From contig NZ_JAFIMU010000007.1 in assembly GCF_017302985.1 (NCBI RefSeq), positions 682,001 to 746,000 of the forward strand: DNA of 64,000 bases, written 5' to 3'. The DNA comes from Corallococcus macrosporus. GTDB lineage: Bacteria; Myxococcota; Myxococcia; Myxococcales; Myxococcaceae. Positions 5,791 through 58,302 of this stretch are shown one piece after another. Position 1 is the first letter of the stretch, and each line of letters opens with the position of its first letter. The notes under the pieces are model-generated. The model saw only the letters and a list, made by a program, of their open reading frames with translations, was not told where the DNA came from and ran no database searches. A program made the translations under genes and the position numbers.

Positions 5791-7110
5791 TCAGCGCCTC
5801 CCGCCGGACTTCTTCGCCGGGGCCTTCCGCGCGGCCTTCTTCGCCGGGGCCTTGCGCACCGACTTCTTCGCGGTGGCCTTCTTCGCCGGAGCCTTGCGCG
5901 CGGCCTTCTTCGCCACCGGCTTGCGCGAGGACTTCTTCGCGGCGGCCTTCTTCGCCGGAGCCTTCTTCGCGGCGGACTTCTTCTTCGCGGGCGCCTTCTT
6001 CGCCGGAGCCTTCTTCACAGCGGCCTTCTTCGCCGGAGCCTTCTTCACAGGCGCCTTGGTCGCGAGCCGCCGCGTCGTCGGCATCTCGACGTAGAGCTTG
6101 TCGGTGCGGCGGGTGAAGAGCACCTCCGCCACCGCGTCCATCAGGGGCTGCATGCCCTCGCCCGTGGCGCAGGACACCGGGTACACGCGGATGCCCTTGC
6201 GGCGCAGCGCCTCCGTGAAGGGGCCCAGGCGCTCGCGGGCCTCCGTCAGGTCCAGCTTGTTGGCGGCCACCACCTGCGGCTTGCCGGCCAGCTCCGCGCT
6301 GTACTTCTTCAACTCCGCGTTGAGGATGTTGAAGTCGTCCAGCGGCTTGCGGCCCTCGCCCTCGGCGCCCATGTCGATGAGGTGCACCAGCACCTTGCAG
6401 CGCTCCACGTGGCGCAGGAACTGGTGGCCCAGGCCCACGCCCTCGCTGGCGCCCTCGATGATGCCGGGGATGTCCGCCATGACGAAGGACAGGTTGTCCT
6501 TGTACTGGACCATGCCCAGGTTCGGCACCAGCGTGGTGAACGGGTAGTCCGCCACCTTCGGCCGCGCCCGGCTCACCCGCGAGATGAACGTGCTCTTGCC
6601 CGCGTTGGGGAAGCCCAGCAGGCCCACGTCCGCCAGCAGCTTCAGCTCCAGCCGCAGGGTGATCTCCTCGCCCTTCCCGCCGTCCTGCGCGAAGCGCGGG
6701 GTCTGGCGCGTGGAGGTGGCGAAGTTCATGTTGCCCAGGCCGCCCCGGCCGCCCTTGGCCGCCACGAACTGCTGGCCCGGGTCGCTCAGGTCCACCAGCA
6801 GCTCGCCCGTGTGCTCGTTGCGGATCAGCGTGCCCACCGGCACCTGGAGCACCAGGTCGTCCGCGCCGTGACCGTTGCAGTCACTGCCCATGCCGTGCTC
6901 GCCGTTCTTGGCGCGGTGGTGCTGCTGGTAGCGGTAGTCCAGGAGCGTGGTCAGTTGCGGGTTCGCAACGAACACCACGGAGCCGCCGTTGCCGCCGTCC
7001 CCGCCGTTGGGGCCGCCGCGCTCGATGAACTTCTCCCGCCGGAAGGCCACGGCCCCGTTCCCGCCGTCTCCCGCCTTCACGTAGATGCGTACTTCGTCGA
7101 CGAACTTCAT
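5791..7110 (-). CDS. obgE: GTPase Obg/CgtA with histone-H1-like Lys/Ala tail
   Basis: Essential GTPase in late 50S assembly and stress control. Residues 1-158 are the glycine-rich Obg fold. The G domain follows with G1 GFPNAGKST (167-175), G3 DIPG (213-216) and G4 NKLD (284-287). Instead of an ordinary OCT domain, residues about 352-439 are repeats of the kind KKAPAKKA/ARKAPAKK, strongly basic and like bacterial histone-H1-like proteins. I use the ATG at 7110 because AGGAGG sits 11 bases upstream and MKFVDEVRIYVKAGDGG is the canonical Obg N-terminus; an in-frame upstream start would add 17 unrelated residues. It is part of the rplU-rpmA-obgE-trmH order seen in many bacteria. Confidence 0.95.
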   Translation of the reverse strand: MKFVDEVRIYVKAGDGGNGAVAFRREKFIERGGPNGGDGGNGGSVVFVANPQLTTLLDYRYQQHHRAKNGEHGMGSDCNGHGADDLVLQVPVGTLIRNEHTGELLVDLSDPGQQFVAAKGGRGGLGNMNFATSTRQTPRFAQDGGKGEEITLRLELKLLADVGLLGFPNAGKSTFISRVSRARPKVADYPFTTLVPNLGMVQYKDNLSFVMADIPGIIEGASEGVGLGHQFLRHVERCKVLVHLIDMGAEGEGRKPLDDFNILNAELKKYSAELAGKPQVVAANKLDLTEARERLGPFTEALRRKGIRVYPVSCATGEGMQPLMDAVAEVLFTRRTDKLYVEMPTTRRLATKAPVKKAPAKKAAVKKAPAKKAPAKKKSAAKKAPAKKAAAKKSSRKPVAKKAARKAPAKKATAKKSVRKAPAKKAARKAPAKKSGGRR

Positions 7111-7161
7111 GGGGCCAGAGCCCTCCTGGAAAAACACAAAGCGGGCCGTCCTCGCATCCAC

Positions 7162-7231
7162 CCGTTCCCAACGGGAACGGAAGGACCGGGAACGACCCGC
7201 TCGGTAAGCCGAGCCCCGGGTCGCCCCGGGG
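7162..7231 (-). other. Two hairpins in the rpmA-obgE spacer
   Basis: The 128-bp gap between rpmA and obgE holds two perfect inverted repeats: CCGTTCCC/GGGAACGG with a 3-nt loop (7162-7180) and CCCCGGG/CCCGGGG with a 4-nt loop (7214-7231). Neither is followed by a T-run on the minus strand. They may be processing or attenuation structures that lower obgE relative to the ribosomal protein genes; this role is inferred from position only. Confidence 0.4.
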
Positions 7232-7238
7232 CCACTGA

Positions 7239-7514
7239 CTAGGCGCTCGCCTGCTCGGCGGCGGCCGGGTACACGGACACCTTCTTCTTGTCGCGGCCGA
7301 GGCGCTCGTACTTCACCACGCCGTCCACCGTCGAGAAGAGGGTGAAGTCGCGACCGAGCTTCACGTTCGTGCCCGGGTGGATGACCGTGCCGACCTGACG
7401 GACGAGGATGCTGCCCGCCGTGATGGTCTCACCGCCGTACACCTTGACGCCACGGTACTGCGGGTTGGAATCACGCCCGTTGCGCGAAGAACCCTGACCT
7501 TTTTTATGGGCCAT
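7239..7514 (-). CDS. rpmA: 50S ribosomal protein L27
   Basis: Ribosomal protein L27, which lies near the peptidyl-transferase centre. The 91-residue sequence begins [20 protein letters not shown] with the family signature, followed by [19 protein letters not shown]. There is no N-terminal processing extension of the Firmicute type. The C-terminus (PAAAEQASA) is slightly longer than in E. coli. It follows rplU by 47 bp and precedes obgE, the classic order. Confidence 0.98.
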
Positions 7515-7561
7515 GACACCTGCTCCTTAAAAGTTCGTGTGGGGAATGACCGGAAAGGCGA

Positions 7562-7870
7562 CTAGCCGGAGATCGAGGTGACCTTCACCTCGGTGTACGG
7601 CTGGCGGTGACCCCGACGGCGGGTCCAGCCTTCCTTCTCCTTGCGGAAGTGCAGGACGCGGCGGTGCTTGTCCTGCGCCAGCACCTTGCCCACGACCTTC
7701 GCGCCCGCGACCGTCGGCTGTCCCACCTTCGGGCTCTCAGAGCCGCCCAGCAGGAGGACCTCGGTGAACGAGACCTCGGCGCCGATGTCCCCGGCGATCT
7801 TCTCGATCCGGACAACGTCGCCCTCGGCGACGCGGTACTGCTTTCCGCCCGTGCGAATGACTGCGTACAT
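7562..7870 (-). CDS. rplU: 50S ribosomal protein L21
   Basis: Ribosomal protein L21, a 23S rRNA-binding assembly protein. The 102 residues start [18 protein letters not shown] and end with [13 protein letters not shown], both typical. An in-frame upstream start would add 18 unrelated residues and is not needed. It is the first gene of the minus-strand group rplU-rpmA-obgE-trmH and probably of a longer run to lolA and its lipoprotein neighbour. Confidence 0.98.
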
Positions 7871-7963
7871 CGTCGAACCCCTGTCAGCTTCGGGTTGGTT
7901 CAACCCATGGAATCCAACGCGCATTTCGGACGGAGGACCGGCCGGCGCGCTAAAAGACGGCGG

Positions 7964-7992
7964 GACTTACGGGAAACCCTGGGGGGAGTCAA
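7964..7992 (-). promoter_or_regulatory. Candidate rplU operon promoter
   Basis: On the minus strand TTGACT (7992-7987) is followed after 17 nt by TAAGTC (7969-7964). The -35 matches the housekeeping consensus at five of six positions; the -10 is weak but has the TAAG form seen before several other starts here. It would give a leader of about 85 nt before rplU, long enough for ribosomal-protein feedback. Confidence 0.4.
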
Positions 7993-8064
7993 GGCAGTTG
8001 GCGGATCAACCCGCCCCCAAGCTCCCTATTTGCTTTTGAATAGAAATCCCGGAATAAAGTCCAC

Positions 8065-8092
8065 TGGACCGCAAGCGAGCGCTCGTTAGGAT
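8065..8092 (+). promoter_or_regulatory. Candidate promoter of the small Cys-rich lipoprotein
   Basis: TGGACC (8065-8070), 16-nt spacer, TAGGAT (8087-8092). The 12-mer TAGGATGCGCGC here is identical to the one just before the oxygenase gene at 10761, which suggests a real promoter element. A second possibility is TTGCTT (8030-8035) with AATAAA (8053-8058) in the AT-rich patch just upstream. Confidence 0.4.
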
Positions 8093-8143
8093 GCGCGCCG
8101 CTTGCTTTCCACCTGTACCTCATCCCTGAGGGGGAGAACCATC

Positions 8144-47020: not shown

Positions 47021-47100
47021 ACTTGGACGGGCTCGTCCCCGGGTCCCGGTGGACCGTCAGCGCGCTGGCAGGGGCCCCGGCCGGGCGACCCACACGAACT

Positions 47101-47117
47101 GGTCCGACAGTCGGACC
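47101..47117. promoter_or_regulatory. 17-bp near-perfect palindrome
   Basis: GGTCCGAC-A-GTCGGACC, 8-bp arms around one central base, in the 251-bp spacer between threonine aldolase and the M23 gene. The shape is that of a dimeric repressor site. Nothing else is seen in this spacer and it contains no tRNA-like fold. Confidence 0.4.
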
Positions 47118-47181
47118 CGTTGGGCCGCATCGGGCCGGCGGTGGGCACCCTGGAGGCCAGGGGCCCTTGTGACGCGGGCGG

Positions 47182-48207
<1,026 letters not shown>

Positions 48208-48243
48208 GGTTCTCCTCGCGGCTTCGAAAAAGGGTGCCCCGCC

Positions 48244-48975
48244 ATGGCGCTTGGGCGGGGCCGCCCCGTGACATACAACGCCCGCGTGGCCCGGCGAGAG
48301 ACAGTGGGTGAGAAGCGGCAGCGCGCGGTGGCGGTCCTGGACGGTCTGGAAGCAGCCATGCCGGACGCCCGCATCGAGCTGGACTACCGCACGCCGCTGG
48401 AGCTGCTGGTCGCCGTCATCCTGTCCGCGCAGTGCACCGACAAGCGCGTCAACCTGGTGACCCCTGCCCTGTTCGCCCGCTTCCCGGACGCCCAGGCCTA
48501 CGCGCGCGTCGAGCCCACCGACGTGGAGCCCTTCATCCGCACCTGCGGGCTGTACCGCGCGAAGGCGAAGAACATCGTCGCCACGGCGCGCGCGCTGGTC
48601 GCGGAGCATGGTGGGCAGGTGCCGCTGGTGCGCGACACGCTGGCGGAGCTGCCGGGCGTGGGGCTGAAGACGGCGGGCGTGGTGTGCATCCACCTGGGCG
48701 GCGACGCGGCCTTCCCGGTGGACACGCACGTGAAGCGGCTGGCGTACCGGCTGGGCTTCACCACGCACGAAGACCCGGACAAGGTGGAGAAGGACCTGCA
48801 GGCGCTGCTGCCTCGCGAGCGGTGGACGCTGGGGCACCAGTTGCTGGTGTGGCACGGGCGGCGCACGTGCTTCGCGCGCTCGCCCGCGTGTAGCGCCTGC
48901 GCGGTGGCGGACCGCTGCCCGAAGAAGGGCGTGCGCGCCACCGCGAAGGGTCAGGCGGACGCCGGAGCGCCCTGA
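48244..48975 (+). CDS. nth: Endonuclease III
   Basis: DNA glycosylase/AP lyase for oxidised pyrimidines. The helix-hairpin-helix region LPGVGLKTAGVV carries catalytic K142 and the aspartate D160 follows in FPVDTHVKR. The [4Fe-4S] cysteines C-x6-C-x2-C-x5-C are in CFARSPACSACAVADRC. The start may be this ATG (243 residues) or the in-frame GTG at 48268, which has GGGCGGGG 7 bases upstream; both leave a short N-terminal extension compared with E. coli Nth. The end overlaps the convergent def gene by 25 bp. Confidence 0.94.
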   Translation: MALGRGRPVTYNARVARRETVGEKRQRAVAVLDGLEAAMPDARIELDYRTPLELLVAVILSAQCTDKRVNLVTPALFARFPDAQAYARVEPTDVEPFIRTCGLYRAKAKNIVATARALVAEHGGQVPLVRDTLAELPGVGLKTAGVVCIHLGGDAAFPVDTHVKRLAYRLGFTTHEDPDKVEKDLQALLPRERWTLGHQLLVWHGRRTCFARSPACSACAVADRCPKKGVRATAKGQADAGAP

Positions 48976-49478
48976 TCCTTCGAGGCCTTGAGCTTCTTCA
49001 TGCGCTTGCGGATGAACTCACGCTTGAGCGTGGAGACGTGGTCCACGAAGACGGTGCCGTCCAGGTGGTCCGTCTCGTGCTGCACGGCGATGGCGAGGAG
49101 GCCGTCACAGCGCAGCGTCTGCTCGTTTCCGTCCTCGTCCAGGTAGCGCACGGTGGCGACGGCGGCGCGGTCCACGTCCTCGGCTTCACCGGGGATGGAG
49201 AGGCAGCCCTCCGTGTAGGTCGTCTCCCCTTCGAGGGCGACGAACTCCGGGTTGATCATCGCCAGGGGCTTGGAGTCCGGCTGCTGCGGCCGGGTGTCCA
49301 GGACGATGACGCGCTGGAGGATGCCCACCTGCGGCGCGGCGAGACCGACGCCCTCCGCGGCGTACATCGTCTCGAACATGTCCTTGATGAGCGCGCGGAC
49401 CTTGTCGTCCACCTTCACCACGGGCTTGGCCTTCTGCTTCAGGATGGGGTCTGGCCAGATGAGAATCTCGCGAACCAT
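48951..49478 (-). CDS. def: Peptide deformylase
   Basis: Metallo-hydrolase removing the formyl group from new proteins. The 175-residue protein has motif 1 GVGLAAPQ (43-50), motif 2 EGCLSIPG with metal ligand C92, and motif 3 QHETDHLDG with H134, E135 and H138. The C-terminal basic tail is short. The ATG lacks a Shine-Dalgarno sequence; TAAGAC lies 8 bases before it. It sits 53 bp after the giant coiled-coil gene on the same strand. Confidence 0.97.
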   Translation of the reverse strand: MVREILIWPDPILKQKAKPVVKVDDKVRALIKDMFETMYAAEGVGLAAPQVGILQRVIVLDTRPQQPDSKPLAMINPEFVALEGETTYTEGCLSIPGEAEDVDRAAVATVRYLDEDGNEQTLRCDGLLAIAVQHETDHLDGTVFVDHVSTLKREFIRKRMKKLKASKDQGAPASA

Positions 49479-49531
49479 GGGGCGGAGTCTTAACGCCTCC
49501 GGACCGCGACGGGCAACCGTTCCACCGGGCA

Positions 49532-52500
49532 TCAGTCGAGCAGATTACGGGCGTACTCCCCCCGCAGCCGGTCGTCTCCCAAGGCCCGCGCGGCCTCCGT
49601 CAGTACCGCGCGGATCTGCTGTGCCCGGTGCTGGAGCGCGGGGTCCGGGTGGCCGGCGAAGCGCAGCGGGTGGAACTCGGCGGCGAGCAGCGCGTAGGCC
49701 CGCTTGACCTCCTCGCTGCCGGCCGAGCGCGCGAGCCCCAGCACGGTGAAGTAGTCCGCGTCCTGGATCTCCTCGAACTTGGCCTCCAGCCGGTGCACGT
49801 CCAGCTCCGGCGGCAGGTCGCCCTGCGCGTCCTCCGAGGGCGGGTGCAGGGCGATGAGGCCCAGCGCGCGCGCCACCGCGAGCGTCTTGAGCGCGCCGTC
49901 CTGCGGCAGCCCCGCGCCCAGGAGCAGCGACTCCAGCGTGCGTTCACCGTCCACGGCCTGCAGGAGCTGGAGCTCGCGGGCGGAGAGGCCGAAGTCCGTG
50001 GGGGCCATGTGCGCGTCGCCTCGGGAGACCTGGGCTCGCAGGGAGCCGGCGGCGTCGAGGAGCGATTCGGCGGTGAGTGTGTTGCGCAGCCCTTCCGCGA
50101 GCAGGTGCAGCGGCGGGCGCGTGGCGGCGGCGAGGGCCACCTCATGCGGCGCGGGCTCCGGCACCAGGCGGTAGAGCGTGGACGGTTCGGCGAGCGCGTC
50201 CAGGAAGACCTGTTCGGTGTAGCGCTGCACCAGCGGGACGGATTCGGCTTCGCGCACGTAGCCCCGGCCGCGCAGGGCCTCCAGGAGCGTGCCGGTGGTG
50301 GCGCTGCGCACGAGCCGCAGCTCGGCTTCCTGGCGCGCGTCGATGAGGCCGTCCGCGCGGGCGCGGTCGATGAGGGACTCGCCCTGCGCGGAGGACGCGG
50401 CGCCGACCAGGGCTCCGTCGCGCAGCCAGAGGACGCGCAAGGCGTTCATCACCTTGAGTTCCAGGCGGACTTCCATGCGCGCGTCACACAGCCGCAGCAC
50501 GAGGCGCGCGAGGCCCTCTTGCGTGAGGCTGCCGCTGCGGGCCACCGCCATCTCCGGGCGGCCGGGCGATTCGAGCGGGATGAGGGTCGCGCGCGCCTGG
50601 GCCGCGGCTTCTTCCGCGTCCCGCTGCGCTCGGGCTTCGAGTTGTTCGCGCTCGCGCTCGGCCTGGAGGCGCTGCTCGACGGCTTCGGCTTCGAGCCGGA
50701 CGCGGGCTTCGCGCTCGCGGGTGAGTTCTTCTCGGAGCTGGTCGAGCTGGGATTGCAGGGTGTCTCGGGCCTGCGTGAGGTTCGTGGACTCGGATTGGGC
50801 TCGGGCTTCGGCTTCGGCTCGGGCGTGGGTTTCGGCGGCGAGGCGGGCTTCGGCGGCGGTGCGGGCCTGGGATTCGGTTTCGATGCGGGCTTCGAGGTCC
50901 TGGCGGGCGCGGGCCTCGGAGTCGAGGCGGACTTCCAGCACGGTGCGCAGGCGTCCTTCGGACGTGGCCTTGGCGGTGGACTCGGCGGACTTCTGCTCCG
51001 CCTGGAGGGCGCGGGATTCCGCGGCGGTGCGGGCCTGGAGCTGCTGCTCGGCGGTTGCTTCCGCTTCGGTGCGGGCCTGTTCGGCCTGGGCCAGTGCTTG
51101 GGTGAGCTGCGCGATGCGTGCTTCGGCTTCGGTGCGTGCCTGGGCCAGGGCCTCGGCTTCGGCCTGGGCCAGCTTGAGCTGGCCGGCTGTCTTCGCGGCT
51201 TCGGCCTGAACCTGCGTGAATTGATCCGCTCGGTCGCCCGAGTCGGACTGGAGCCGCTGGAGCTGCTCCGCGCGGGCCTCTGCTTCGGCGCGGGCCTGCG
51301 TCAGCTGCTCGGCGGTCTGCTTCGCTTCGGACTGGAGCTGCGCCAGTTGTTCCGCGCGGGCGTCGGATTCGGCCTGGACCTGTTTGAGCTGTTCTTCGCG
51401 GGCCGCTGCTTCGGCTTGGGCTTGCTTGAGCTGTTCTTCGCGGGCCTCTGTCTCGGCCTCAAGCTGCTTGAGCTTCTCCGCGCGGGCCTCTGCCTCGGCC
51501 TCAAGCTGCTTGAGCCTCTCCTCGCGGGCCTCGGCCTCCGCCTGAGCCTGAGTGAGCGACTCCTCGCGGGCTTCTGCTCCCGACTGGGACTGCTTGAGCT
51601 GCTCCTCGCGAGCCTCTGCTTCGGCCTCAAGCTGCTTGAGCTTTTCCCCGCGGTTCTCTGCTTCGGCCTGCACCTGCTTCAGGTGTTCTTCGCGGGCTTC
51701 TGCTTCGGCCTGTGCCTGCCGCAGCTGTTCTTCGCGGGCCGTTGCCTCAGCCTCAAGCTGCTTGAGCTTTTCCTCGCGGGCCTGTGCTTCGGCCTGAGCC
51801 CGAGTGAGCAATTCCTCGCGGGCCTGTGCTTCGACCTGGGCCTGCGTCAGCTGCTCGGCGCGGGCCTCTGCTTCGGCCTGGGCCTGGGTGAGCAGTTGCT
51901 CACGGGCTTCTGCTTCGGCCTGGGCTTGCTTCAACTGCTCGGCTCGCGTCTCCGCTTCGGCCTGCGCCTTCTTCAGCTGCTCGGCGCGAGCGTCCGCTTC
52001 GGCCTGGGCCTGGGTGAGCAGGTCCTCGCTGGCTTCTGCTTCGGCCTGGAGCTGTCTGGCGTTGGCGTCTCGGGCTTGTTCGGCTTCGGCGGCTCGCGCT
52101 TCGGCGCGCTTCACGGCCTCCGACAGCTCCTTCACGCGGGCTTCGGTTCGCGCCAGGGCCTGCGTCAGCTGATCCACTCGCGCTTCTGCCTGGAGCAGGG
52201 CTTCGGCGGGCTGCGCGGCCTTGGCTTCGGCTCGCTGGCGGGCCTGCTTGAGCTGCTCCATCCTCGCGTTGGCCTGGCCCAGCGTCTCCGCGAATCGCGT
52301 CTCGTTCTGCTTCGCCGCGGCTTCGGCTTCTTCCGCTCGGGCCTGGGCTTCGGCCAGGGCTTCCTCGGCCTTCGCGGCCCGGGCTTCTGCTTCGGCCAGG
52401 CGCTCGGCGTTTCGTTCCGCGGTGACTTCGGCGGCGGCTCGGGCTTCCTCTGCTTGCGTGGCCCGGTCTTCGGCCTGGCTCACGGCCTGCGTGGACTGCT

Positions 52501-55500
52501 TTGCCTTGGCTTCGCCCTGCAGCAGCACCTGCGCCAGCTGCTGCGCCCGGGCCTCCACCTGCGCCAGGGCCTGGGCGGACTGCTTCGCCTTCGCCTCGGA
52601 TTGCGCCAGCGCCTGCGTGGCTTGCTGAACCCGGGTCTCCGCCTGGGCCAGCGCCTGCGCGGACTGCTTCGCCCTTGCTTCGGACTCAGCCAGCGATTGG
52701 GCCAGCTGGTGCGCTCGCACCTCCACCAGGGACAGCGCCTGCGCGGAGTGCTTCACCTTCGCTTCGGCGGCGGTCCGGGCCTTCGCCTCCGCTTCGGCCC
52801 TTGCTTCCGCTTCGGCACGCCGGGCCTCCACCGCGGCGGTCTCATCGTCGCGGCGCTCCGTCCGCTCGGTGCCGGACTCCGCTCGGGCTTCGGCCGCGAG
52901 CCGGGCTTCGATCTCGGCTTCCAGCCGCGCTTCCACGTCCGTGCGCGCGGCCTGCTCCAGTTCGGCGCGGGCTTCGGCCTCTTCGCGCGTCTGGGCTTCC
53001 TGGCGGGCCCGGAGTTCGGCCTCCTCGCGTGCCTGGACCTCCGTGGCGATGCGCTTCTCGAGTTCGGCCAGTTCGAGCCTTGCCATCTCCGCGAGGGCTT
53101 CGGCTTCGCGGCGGGCGCGCTCCTCGGCGTCCGCTCGGGCTTCGGCTTCCACGCGGCTTCCGGCCTCGGAGGCGAGCCGGGCTTCGACCTCCGCGAGGGC
53201 CTGCGTCGCCGACACGGCCCGGACTTCCGAGTCCGCGCGGGCCTCCGACGCCTGCTTCAACAGCGACTCGGCGCGGGCTCGGGCGTGGACCTCTGCTTCG
53301 GCCCGCACTTCCACCGCGCTCCGGGCCTCGACCTCCGCGTTCGCTTCGAGAAGGGCGTCCTCTCGTGCTCGCGCTTCGCCTGCGACGCGCTCTTCCAGCT
53401 CGACGCGGAGCGACTGCTCCGATTCGGCCAGGGCTTCCGCGTCCGCGGCGCGGGCCTCCGCCTCCTCGATGGCGGCGTAGGCCATCGCGAGCTCTTCACG
53501 CAGCGATTCCAGCTCCGCGGCCAGGTCGGACGGTGGCTCGGCCGCGTCGTTGCTCGCTGGAGCGGGGGCCTGCTGCTCCTGGGTGCGCGTCTTGTTCGCC
53601 CGTTGCAGGCCTCCGGGCACCTGCATCGGCGACGACGGTGCCTGGACTTCCAGCCGGGCCGTGGGCTCCGAGGAGCCGTCTGGATTCGCGGCATCGCGCG
53701 CTCCAGCCGCGTCGCCCGTGTGTGCGGAGGTACCGGCGCCTGTGTCGCGTGACCGCGATGAAAAAGGATTGGATCCTGCTGCATCGCCGACGCCGGACGG
53801 ACTTGCCGCGCGCGTGGCGGTGCCTCCGGCTCCGCTGATCAGGGCATGGGTGCCTGCTGCGGCACCGGCTCCGGACTCCACGGCGGTGCCACTCGTTACC
53901 GCCGCACTGCCTGCTCCGGACTTGTCGCTCAGGGCCGCTGGGCTGACCGCCGCATCGCTCGGGCCCGCGACAACTCCCACAGGGGCCTTGCCCGACGAAC
54001 GCAGTGGGACTCGGGCCGCGACACGTAGTGGCCGCTCGGGGTTCACACGGTGCGCCGCGGTATCCGGGGCGCCGCCATCGCGCGACGCCTTGGCCTCCTC
54101 CGGGCGTGCCGCCGTTGCTTCGTCCGCACGCGAGACCTGCGCATCACCCGCACGTGAGGCATTTGCCTCGTCCGGACGCGATGCTTTGTCATCCTCCGGA
54201 CGCGCTGACTTCGCATCACCGGAATGCAACGCTTTCGCTTCATCGGAACGCGCTGACTTCGCCTCGTCCGGACGTGCGCCTTCACGGCCTGCACGGGCCG
54301 CGTCACCGCCCGCGGGATCCGACCACTGGAGGGGCTTCGTGCCCTCCGTCTTCGTCTCCTCGACGGTCTCGGAATCGAACCAGTCCGAGCCCACCGGCTT
54401 CTCGGCGGCATCGGGCTCTTCGCCCCGCTCGCGCGCTTCGGCGGAGGCCTTGAGCTCCTGCTCCAGCACGTCCCAGTTCGACAGGCCCGCCGCCGCCAGC
54501 TCCTCCTCGGTCGGCTCCGAGGAAGAAGACTCGGCCTCTTCCGAGGACTCCGCTGCCGCCGCCCTGGCCCGCTCCTCCGCCGCCACGTCTTCCGCGACCG
54601 AACCGAAGTCCGCCTCGTCGGGGTCTCCCACTCCGCCCCGCGACGGACGCGACTCCAGCTCCGGATCCGGCTCCAGTTCCTTCCAGGCCAGCGGCGCCGC
54701 GCCCTCCGGCTCCGCCACCTTCGCGGCCCCAGCGCCCTCGTCCGAGTCGACGTCGAAGAACCCCTCGTCGCCCAGCTTCGGCGCGGCCTTCACCGGCTTG
54801 AGCCCCGGCGGCGTGAGCCGCTCCTCACGGAACGCGAGCTGCCCCTCCGGCGGCGCCCCTTCCTCCTCGGCCCCCTCCTCGTTCGGGAACGGGAAGCGCA
54901 GCGTGGTGCGCGCCTCCGGCGAACGGCCGTCCGCCGCGTCCGCGTTCGGCGGCTCCGCGTCCCACTCGTCGCCGATGTTCGCGTCCGGATCCTGCTCGCC
55001 CCACGCCTCCCCGGAGTCCCCCTCCCCCGCCGCCCACTCCGACTTCGTGCCCACGGAGAGCGCCGAGTCGATGGACGCCATCGCCTCCGACTCCACCTCC
55101 AGGTGCGCCTCTTCCAGCGCGGCGTTCATCGCCAGGTGCGTGCTGCGCTCGCGCTGCTGGTGCACGGCGTGCGCGCTGCGCTCCTCGCGCGTCATCGCCG
55201 CCACTTCCCAGTCCGTCTGGTTCAGCGGCGCCAGGTCCCCGAACAGCGCGTTGGCCAGCGCCGGGTCCCCGCCCACCGCGTGCGGCGCCGTCGCGTGCCA
55301 CGCTTCGTCCGAACCCGGGCCGCTCCCCTTCGCCGGCTCCTGGAGCGCCCGGTTCTCCACCACGCGCCAGCCGTCCGCCTCCGCCGGGGCGCGGATCAAC
55401 GTGTCCACCAGCGTCACGAAGCTGGGGCCGTCCAGGGGCAGCGGCGCCACCGGCGCGCTGAAGCCCTCGATGGCTTCGCTCAAGAGCAGCACCCGGGCCT

Positions 55501-55726
55501 TGTGGCCCTCCGGGTGCTGCACCAGCTCCTCCAGCACCACGCGCCCGCGGCCGCTCTCCACGCCCGGCGCCAGCACGATGAGCTCCGGCAGGTGATGCCC
55601 GAAGGCGATGAGCGCGTCCGCGGCGGAGGTGGCGAGGATGACCTCGTGCCCTTCGCGGGACAGCAGTCGCCGGACGGCGGCGATGGTGGCGATGTCGTCG
55701 TGTACGAGGAGGACCGAGGCGCCCAT
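49532..55726 (-). CDS. Giant pseudo-receiver / coiled-coil / DUF4388-like / J-like protein
   Basis: A single intact frame of 2064 residues. Residues 1-115 look like a CheY receiver ([22 protein letters not shown], with D10-D11), but the phospho-acceptor position reads [11 protein letters not shown]: alanine at about 53 instead of aspartate, so it is a pseudo-receiver. Residues about 120-730 are acidic, low-complexity and include eight tandem 8-residue units (about 485-548). Residues about 735-1725 form a near-continuous Ala/Glu/Gln/Arg coiled coil with many 14-residue repeats. A DUF4388/PATAN-like domain (about 1733-1850, [16 protein letters not shown]) follows. The last 75 residues are J-domain-like ([31 protein letters not shown]) but HPD is replaced by HPL. 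Receiver plus long coiled coil recalls FrzS of Myxococcus xanthus. No membrane segment. Role in polarity or motility is speculation. Confidence 0.85.
51240..52020 (-). repeat. About 18 tandem 42-bp repeats coding for 14-residue heptad pairs
   Basis: Within the giant coiled-coil gene, units like [14 protein letters not shown] (14 residues, two heptads) recur nearly without interruption. Boundaries are approximate. The unit DNA is similar enough that replication slippage or recombination could change copy number in steps that keep the frame and the heptad phase. Confidence 0.7.
54083..54274 (-). repeat. Eight tandem 24-bp repeats (8 residues each)
   Basis: The giant protein contains [56 protein letters not shown] and RPEEAKAS in direct succession. 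They are charged, disordered-looking and unlike the heptads of the coiled coil. Confidence 0.75.
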
Positions 55727-55742: not shown

Positions 55743-58136
55743 CTACAGCATGGCCCCGGGATCCACGTCGATGACGACCTTCACCCCGTTGGGCACATCC
55801 GGCAACGCCGCCTCCAGCCGGGCGAGCAATGGGGCGAGCGCAGAATGCGTCGGCGCCTTCAGGAGCAGCTGCCAGCGCGTCTTGCCCCGAATCCGGGCAA
55901 TGGGCGCCAGGGCCGGCCCCAAGAGGCGCACCCCCGCCGAGGCCGGCGGCATGTGCCGCCCCACCAGGTTCCCCAGGAAGCGCGCCACCCCCGCCGTCTG
56001 CTCGGGGTGCTCGCCCTCCAGCCGGACGGCCGCCATGCGCGCGAAGGGCGGATAGGCCAGCGCCTTGCGCCACTCCAGTTCCTGCTTGGAGAACCCGTCG
56101 AAGTCGTGCGCCAGCACCCGCTTCACCGGCTCCGCGTCCGGGTTGTAGGTCTGCACCAGCACCCGGCCCGGGTCCTTGCCGCGTCCCGCCCGCCCCGCCA
56201 CCTGGGTCAACAGGTGGAAGGTCCGCTCGGCGGCCCGGAAGTCCGGAATGGCCAGGGACGTGTCCGCCATCACCACGCACACCAGCGTCACGCCCGGAAA
56301 GTCGTGCCCCTTGGCCACCATCTGCGTGCCCACCAGCACGTCCAGCTCCCGCCGCGCGAAGGACGCCAGCAGCTCCGTCAGCTTCTCCGCGCTCGTCGCG
56401 GAGTCCCGGTCCAGCCGCGCCACGCGTGCGTGCGGCATCTTCTCCAGGACCTCCGCCTCCACGCGCTCCGTGCCGATGCCCAGCTTGAGCAGCGGGCCCG
56501 TGCACTCGCGGCAGGCGTTGGGCACCGGGAAGGCCACGCCGCAGTAGTGGCACACCACCCGGTTCTGCGAGCGGTGGTGCGTCATGCACACGTCGCAGTC
56601 GTGGCACTTGAGCGACAGGCCGCACACCTCGCACAGGAGGATGGTGCTGTGGCCGCGGCGGTTGAGGAACAGGATGACCTGCTGCCCCTTGGCCACCGTC
56701 TCCTCCATGGCCTGGAGCATCTGCGGGCTGAGGATGGGCGCCTCTTCCGTCACCTGGCCCTCGCGCGGACGCTCCACGCGCAGGTCCACCAGGTTGATGG
56801 TGGGCATGGGCCGGTCATCCACGCGGTTCTTCAGCTCGATGAGCTTGTAGCGGCCGGAGCGCGTGTTCTGGAGCGTCTCCAGGGACGGCGTCGCCGAGCC
56901 CAGCACCACCACCGCGCCGGCCTGCTTGCCGCGCACCACCGCCAGGTCACGCGCCTGGTAGCGCAGCTTCTCGTCCTGCTTGAAGGACGGGTCGTGCTCC
57001 TCGTCCACGACGATGAGCCCCAGGTGCTCCACCGGCGCGAACACCGCCGAGCGCACACCGACGGCGATCTTCACCGTGCCCTTGCGCAGCGCCTGCCAGT
57101 GGAACAGCCGCTCGCGGTCCTTGAGCCCCGAGTGCAGCACCGCCACGTCCCCGCCGAAGCGGCTGCGGAAGCGCCCCACCAGCTGCGGCGTCAGCGCGAT
57201 TTCCGGCACCAGCACCAGGCTGCCCAGGCCGCGCGCGAGCGTGTGCTCCACCGCGCGCAGGTAGACCTCCGTCTTGCCGCTGCCGGTGACGCCGTGCAGG
57301 AGGTACGGCTGGAAGCCGCCCGCGTCCACGGCGCCCTGGAGTTCCTTCACCGCGAGGGCCTGCTCCGGGGTGAGGCGGTCCGGGCGGTTCTGCACCAGCC
57401 CCTCGCGCACGCCGGCCTGCAGCGTCACCTCCACCCACTTCACGAACTTGCGCGTGGCCAGCTTCTTCAGCGTCTCGCGCGCGCCGGGGATGGCGTGCGT
57501 CACCTCGTCCAGCGGCGCGCGTCCGCCCACCGCCAGGAGGTACTGGAGCACGGCGGCCTGCGCCGGAGCGCGGGCCAGCTGCGGCGGCACCTCCGTGACG
57601 AGCGCCTCCACGAAGAACTGGATGTCCGGCTTCGCTTCCTTCTCATCCACCGCGGTGGAGAGGCCCGGCGGCAGCGCGCCGCGGATCACCTCGCCCAGCG
57701 GATAGCGGTAGTGCTCGGCGGTGAAGCGCAGGAGCGCGATGAGGTCCTTGGGCAGGGAGGGCGAGTCCTCCAGCACGCGCTGGATGGGCTTGAGCCGCAC
57801 GCCGCCCTCCACCGGTGCGTTCGCGGGCCCCAGGTAGAAGCCCAGCGCCATGCCCCGGCCGAAGGGCACCAGCACGCGCTGGCCCGGGGCGAGGTTGCCC
57901 GCGAGCGCCTCCGGCACCAGGTAGGTGAACTCCCCGCGCACGGGACGTCCCACGGCGACGGACGCAAGTTGGGCAGGGGTGGCGCTCACGACGGGGCGCA
58001 CTGTAGCGGCCTGTTCCCGCTGCGACAGTTCCCGTCCCACTTCCGTACGCCGCGTCCGCAGGGGAATGGCACCGCGAGAGGGAACCTCTCCGGCTCCCTG
58101 CGAAAACCCACCCAGCGCGAAGTGCTCTTGCTCCAT
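55743..58136 (-). CDS. priA: Primosomal protein N' (replication restart helicase PriA)
   Basis: Superfamily 2 helicase that reloads the replisome on stalled forks. The 797 residues show the N-terminal 3'-end-binding domain ([18 protein letters not shown]), Walker [18 protein letters not shown] in [14 protein letters not shown], and the cysteine-rich zinc region ([34 protein letters not shown]). About 50 extra N-terminal residues precede the usual start; AGAGG upstream supports the ATG used, but a GTG nearer the domain is possible. The upstream 166-bp spacer to the gst stop holds no clear signal. Confidence 0.94.
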
Positions 58137-58302
58137 GACCGACCTCTTGCCGCCTTCTCCCCCACCCCGCCCGTCCTGCACCCGGGATCCACTGTGCCCC
58201 GGGCGTCTGACATTCCCGGGCCTGGGAAGCACGAAGGGCCCCTCCCGGCCCCGGAAAACAGGGTGCGGAAGAGGCCCGGGGAGGAAGGAGGCGTGCGTGC
58301 GG

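Follow-up and report, generated by a model that had tools for sequence, protein, structure and literature searches.

Introduction

In the genome of Corallococcus macrosporus (9.8 Mb, 17 contigs), the gene for a 2064-residue protein, referred to here as X, stands between priA and def. The gene lies in a window of 64,000 nucleotides (contig NZ_JAFIMU010000007.1, positions 682,001 to 746,000), and a preliminary description made from the letters of that window proposed that one frame joins a receiver with alanine at the phospho-acceptor position, about 1000 residues of coiled coil, a DUF4388/PATAN-like domain and a J-like end in which HPL replaces HPD. By comparison with FrzS of Myxococcus xanthus, X was suggested to be a phosphorylation-independent polar or cytoskeletal scaffold. 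We found no description of this gene in the open-licence literature, searched by terms other than locus tags. The question raised by the locus is what a protein of this composition would do next to priA and def. The answer that we favor, at somewhat better than even probability, is that X is a phosphorylation-independent constitutive adaptor that does not stimulate DnaK and is probably made with PriA and Def.

Results and Discussion

A single frame between priA and def

The X frame starts with ATG and contains no stop within its 2064 codons. Its parts follow one another in the order pseudo-receiver, disordered-looking linker, helical spacer, DUF4388 and J-like end with HPL (Table 1). A Pfam scan of the whole protein returned DnaJ and Response_reg alone, each under its cut-off. 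The C-terminal 350 residues share 99.7% identity with C. exercitus and 96-98% with other Corallococcus records. Among the 47 X loci examined, the N- and C-terminus were in the same ORF in all 37 that show both; in the remaining 10 the N-terminus was not found, which was ascribed to contig ends from the positions of the matches. The fusion in one frame was therefore confirmed, and an origin of X from two or more proteins joined by a frameshift was not supported. The identification of X as a phage or defence protein was also rejected; PADLOC gave no match and PHROGs a single weak one (E = 0.0047).

Table 1. Coordinates, in the window, of gene X, its parts and its neighbors
Feature	Position	Strand	Basis or remark
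X, 2064-residue protein	49532..55726	(-)	single ORF, both ends joined in 37/37 informative loci
priA, upstream neighbor	55743..58232	(-)	16 bases between priA stop and X start
def, downstream neighbor	48951..49532	(-)	first ATG overlaps X stop
Pseudo-receiver, residues 1-115, without helix alpha4	55382..55726	(-)	Pfam, profile, AlphaFold2, alignment
Ala53, phospho-acceptor column	55568..55570	(-)	profile and alignment
Acidic low-complexity linker, residues 120-724, few kept short motifs	53555..55369	(-)	sequence, alignment
Ala/Glu/Arg/Gln-rich spacer, residues 725-1714	50585..53554	(-)	composition, periodicity, length comparison
Clear 3.5-residue periodicity, residues 960-1520	51167..52849	(-)	overlaps 42-base tandem array 51148-52049
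DUF4388 (PATAN), residues 1731-1882	50081..50536	(-)	over Pfam cut-off
Winged-helix-like part, residues ~1885-1963	49838..50074	(-)	weak, Z 7.2-7.5
J-like domain, residues 1991-2058	49553..49756	(-)	Pfam, profile, model
HPL replacing HPD, residues 2019-2021	49664..49672	(-)	sequence reading

The X stop and the first def ATG overlap in the sequence TGATG. Since, among the more distant genomes compared, homology mostly begins at residue 17-20 of the def ORF, the true def start may lie 54 bases further on. A survey of gene neighborhoods, which the preliminary description had proposed, covered 104 X loci (at least seven genomes are counted twice) and found priA as a direct neighbor in 66 and def in 83; 51 loci have both, and 98 at least one of them. 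Five of the six loci without either neighbor have no upstream room and no def near, and the sixth, L140, has neither gene despite the room. One partner is absent despite room in 26 of the 104 loci (13 without def and 13 without adjacent priA); one-sided breaks of the cluster are thus common. A new finding is that X is placed between priA and def well outside the family as well. Because the gene lies between the two others on the same strand, X is probably made together with PriA and Def; the synteny is no proof of a shared pathway. In the window, no RNA gene reached the gathering score and no tRNA was found. Downstream of def, the frame at 47182-48855 (-) matches Beta_elim_lyase (threonine-aldolase-like), and a 405-amino-acid ORF at 47057-48274 is probably an out-of-frame shadow of that overlapping frame.

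A receiver without acceptor aspartate and without helix alpha4

Residues 1-125 of X alone matched the Pfam model Response_reg below threshold (E = 3.2e-5, 24.5 bits against a cut-off of 30.2 bits), and all 36 members of alignment A3, X of the window included, matched it at E<=1. Compared with solved receivers, the A3 profile gave its best match with RR468 at E = 1.3e-8, with LIVLD of RR468 aligned with LIVLA of X, which places Ala53 in the acceptor column. The AlphaFold2 model of this end (pLDDT 88, pTM 0.84) has a receiver fold with the topology beta1-alpha1-beta2-alpha2-beta3-alpha3-beta4, no alpha4, a short beta5 and alpha5, and its best structural match, with an rmsd of 1.9 over 114 residues and Z 18.4, is to DivK. 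Besides the replacement of the acceptor Asp by Ala53, the conserved Lys is replaced by Leu, the first acidic Asp by His9 and the Thr by Ser83, while the second acidic residue, Asp10, is kept.

The 82 N-termini collected were reduced to 79 and, once genomes present twice were removed, to 70 that are non-redundant. The set from the host's order (Myxococcales) consists of the genomes assigned there together with the 47 X loci, all with myxobacterial titles except L096. That record is titled Comamonas sp. KCTC 72670 and carries a Myxococcus-like X with 84% C-terminal identity, so the record is probably mistitled or its assembly a mixture. Of the 11 sequences from outside the order, two belong to another order within the host's class and nine to other classes. 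In ten of the 20 X loci outside the host's order, no N-terminus was found within the ORF that contains the C-terminus, in some because the contig ends, and four loci outside it (L128, L140, L141 and L142) have long frames in which no receiver was recognized. L071, L072 and L075 were handled as paralogs.

In the 70 sequences, the acceptor column contains Ala (41), Gln (12), Ser (9), Asp (3), Gly (2), Asn (2) and Thr (1). Asp is found in none of the 59 from the host's order, and a conserved Asp in the true acceptor column of X was found neither with the profile nor in these counts. The three Asp residues, among the 11 outsiders, belong to L130, L131 and L136, one family of another class, and phosphorylation is thus possible in those relatives. 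The acidic pair is altered in these three sequences, which may still be phosphorylatable or may represent a reversion. Lys occupies the receiver Lys column in three of the 70 N-termini, each from outside the host's order. The second acidic Asp is present in 74 of the 79 N-termini, a count biased by the selection of some of them with a motif requiring that Asp.

The Thr and Lys columns are separated by a stretch of 8-13 residues in all 59 sequences from the host's order, in contrast to 22 residues in all 11 outsiders and 21 in RR468. The lineage leading to the host's order has therefore most likely lost helix alpha4, a reading that goes beyond the preliminary description. Five beta-alpha units, alpha4 included, are usual and lie outside the definition of a pseudo-receiver in the abstract of a review (PMC12632262). 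Considering the short stretch and the lack of a helix at that place in the model, we term X an alpha4-less variant.

A special kinship with FrzS was not supported by the profile. The solved FrzS receiver, 2gkg, matched the A3 profile at E = 2.3e-4, behind many other receivers, phosphorylatable ones among them. FrzS was not among the best 50 structural matches to the X model, a result that carries no weight against kinship. FrzS is reported to bind SgmX through the surface alpha3-beta4-alpha4, and nearly all observed pseudo-receiver dimers are described as using part of alpha4-beta5-alpha5 (PMC12632262). Without alpha4, X would be unable to use either of these alpha4-type surfaces, and a partner surface of the FrzS type is not supported for it.

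A J-like end without HPD

When residues 1715-2064 were scanned alone, both C-terminal domains passed their Pfam cut-offs: DUF4388 (PF14332) with E = 4e-6 and 27.3 bits against 25, and DnaJ with E = 4.3e-7 and 30.4 bits against 27.8. At E<=1, DUF4388 was matched by 31 of the 31 members of alignment A1 and DnaJ by 30, and the C-terminal profile matched solved J domains at E = 1.7e-12. In the AlphaFold2 model of this end (pLDDT 89, pTM 0.71), the J part resembles J domains with Z of at most 10.4, which is middling among helical folds. With the whole C-terminal model, Foldseek found nothing at E<=0.001, and in the structural match lists consulted for the fold of the DUF4388 part the places were filled by J domains. 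A likeness of the winged-helix-like part to GATOR1 was too weak for use. Both the DUF4388/PATAN-like domain and the J-like end with HPL were thus correctly recognized from the sequence. As to membership in the J-domain proteins, the J fold is present in X with its HPD tripeptide replaced. The 107 J regions collected correspond to 92 distinct ones, and HPD is retained in two of these, L060 and L073.

Two loci of the same genome, L153 and L148, resemble X in having DUF4388 followed by a J domain, and differ from it in retaining HPD and in carrying TPR repeats, both missing from X. Together with L152 they match the DnaJ and TPR models and have an intact HPD, as read by eye, and the receiver of L153 has Gly, also by eye, in the acceptor place. 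L152 is a J-TPR paralog whose open frame of 2176 residues contains repetitive sequence. These paralogs, like the J fold that has lost HPD, agree with a regulator of the chaperone network similar to Pam16, in which the J-like domain of X would tune DnaK by pairing with a genuine J protein, perhaps one of the DUF4388-J-TPR paralogs of the host genome that keep HPD. Pam16 and the trypanosome Pam18 share with X a J fold without intact HPD (PMC11349236), but they are proteins of the mitochondrial inner membrane and have no receiver. We consider such a regulator quite unlikely, since the trypanosome J-like proteins are reported to be active without Hsp70 (PMC11349236) and the stretches scanned around X contained no DnaK gene next to it.

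A spacer of changing length

Residues ~120-720 of X look disordered, as judged from composition. The motifs ALFGDL (160-165), DWEVAAMT (172-179) and LGDEGFFDV (318-326) are shared by many of the 17 Myxococcaceae sequences aligned; encoded at 55190-55249 and 54749-54775 of the window, they are possible partner-binding peptides in an otherwise unalignable linker. Over residues 725-1712 the hydrophobic 3.5-residue periodicity reaches z = 10 against shuffles, distributed unevenly: 12.0 in 960-1240, 4.8 in 1240-1520, -0.4 in 725-960 and -0.3 in 1520-1712. Of the coiled coil of about 1000 residues proposed at first, the composition is found over the entire 725-1712 region but a clear heptad periodicity over 960-1520 only. 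Among 19 relatives tested, three have no extended region low in Pro and Gly. In the 16 others, z reaches 8.7-11.4 in three Corallococcus loci and 1.6-6.9 in seven relatives, and does not exceed 1.2 in six (L086, L087, L088, L092, L102 and L104). Across 50 proteins, the spacer varies in length between 58 and 1853 residues. This range and the uneven heptad signal among relatives indicate that the coil is a variable accretion and not the defining part of X.

These observations bear on the proposal that X, like FrzS or AglZ, is a polar or cytoskeletal scaffold for motility, whose pseudo-receiver would dock at the pole while the coil reaches or assembles the motility machinery. FrzS has the same broad layout, with an atypical, Asp-less N-terminal receiver followed by a long coiled coil (PMC1974792), AglZ of M. 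xanthus is described as coupling a receiver to a filament-forming coil in a similar layout (PMC2680258), and heptad periodicity is present in the Corallococcus X. Nevertheless, the X receiver is nearer to phosphorylatable receivers than to that of FrzS and is missing alpha4, the coil of the relatives is short or has no heptad signal, and X, unlike FrzS, has DUF4388 and a J-like end and is located beside priA and def, not beside motility genes. AglZ differs from X in that it is not known to have a DUF4388 or J-like C-terminus. Five other receivers of the host genome found with the A3 profile (E<=1e-3) are in frames of 156-1120 amino acids, none with a match better than 1.6e-10. We therefore regard a motility scaffold as unlikely: the Asp-less receiver and the scaffold-like layout stand, and the FrzS kinship, the FrzS-type surface and a conserved cytoskeletal coil are not supported.

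Distribution, short forms and selection

When 195 genomes from the host's phylum were searched with a profile, 170 had a match at E<=1e-20, and 138 of these, by hand count, at 1e-49 or better. Some of the weaker matches are paralogs or pieces cut by contig ends; the second-best match in the host genome itself has E = 3.5e-26. The X relatives outside the host's order matched at E values from 1.2e-54 to 8.7e-97. Nineteen regions behind priA are without a clear X: def follows directly in ten and after a gap of ~0.75 kb in one, two have a short form and six have no def in range. X has been lost in some lineages, and the ten genomes in which priA and def lie side by side without it show that X is dispensable for the two genes.

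Both short forms lie between priA and def. L156 is a 345-amino-acid frame (reverse strand, 7066-8100) that is recognized by the family profiles (E = 5.3e-21 and 4.3e-23), with weak matches to Pfam Response_reg (0.0071) and DnaJ (0.17). L169 is a 236-amino-acid frame (reverse strand, 7244-7951) that matches the C-terminal family profile only (2.6e-9) and, weakly, Pfam DnaJ (0.0034). Because L169 gave no match to the Pfam receiver model, its receiver rests on the sequence read by eye. DUF4388 was not found in either by Pfam, and the coil is also absent.

The short forms are one reason why we think it improbable that X regulates the type IV pilus motor through an action of DUF4388/PATAN on PilB. 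Synechocystis PATAN response regulators are reported to bind PilB (PMC10519157, PMC7690835), and DUF4388 is present in 31 of 31 C-termini; L156 and L169 lack this domain. In addition, nine of the ten X-less genomes with adjacent priA and def pass the PilB cut-off among the matches listed, and the tenth, G166, has a match at E = 6.6e-233. With PilB-family ATPases in 193 of the 195 genomes, this co-occurrence says little. Cyanobacterial regulators such as PixG combine, like X, a receiver and PATAN in one protein, but PATAN is N-terminal in them (PMC10519157), whereas X begins with the pseudo-receiver and finishes with the J-like end.

Compared with eight close loci, dN/dS was 0-0.106 at the N-terminus of X and 0.014-0.069 at the C-terminus, and with five more distant loci it rose to at most 0.355 and 0.236, respectively. 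The Def ORF gave 0.211-0.479 in five usable comparisons; the value for L078 (2.654, with dS and dN inflated) was set aside as an alignment slip. Purifying selection acts on both ends of X. A decaying gene, or a residual protein without present function, would agree with the disappearance of both catalytic features and with the clean loss of X in ten genomes. Such decay is extremely improbable in view of dN/dS values far under 1 at both ends and a frame that is open in every locus showing both of them.

A proposed constitutive adaptor

Because the constant part of X consists of two binding folds without catalytic features, beside priA and def, we read X as an always-on adaptor. The receiver is expected to be unable to be phosphorylated and the J-like end unable to stimulate DnaK. 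With no acceptor Asp, conserved Lys or alpha4, the pseudo-receiver would have been kept as a binding module and not as a switch; the J-like domain without HPD would likewise serve for binding and not as a co-chaperone. Both ends would thus bind partners, held apart by a spacer that may change freely in length, and the DUF4388/PATAN module, also carried by nearly all relatives examined, would accompany them. Probably co-produced with the replication-restart helicase PriA and the peptide deformylase Def, X may act in replication or nascent-protein processing pathways. The absence of the acceptor Asp in 59 of 59 sequences, the retention of HPD in as few as 2 of 92 J regions, the low dN/dS, the synteny in 98 of 104 loci, the strong matches outside the host's order, the wide range of spacer lengths and the short forms argue for the adaptor. 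Against it are the acceptor Asp in 3 of the 11 sequences from outside the host's order, the same two J regions that kept HPD, the ten X-less genomes with priA next to def and the weak Pfam matches of the short forms.

The significance of X lies in part in its receiver, as the way pseudo-receivers act without phosphate was called a mystery in a 2025 review (PMC12632262). Within a single syntenic gene, X presents a natural series made up of full-length receivers that have Asp, in three sequences, full-length ones that lack it, and receivers with neither Asp nor alpha4. The short forms L156 and L169 are small enough for study and handy for structure work. At the other end of the protein, an HPD-less J-like domain is found beside replication and translation genes across much of the host's phylum. 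It recalls, by analogy only, trypanosome Pam16 and Pam18, for which an Hsp70-independent role in mitochondrial DNA replication is reported (PMC11349236). A more specific form of the adaptor, to which we give little credence, is that X ties PriA (replication restart) or Def (nascent-protein processing) to the chaperone network throughout the phylum. In that case the HPD-less J-like domain would be one docking head and the alpha4-less pseudo-receiver the other, and the giant coil of the Myxococcaceae a mere adjustable spacer. If this were true, X would be a bacterial counterpart of the repurposed J-like proteins.
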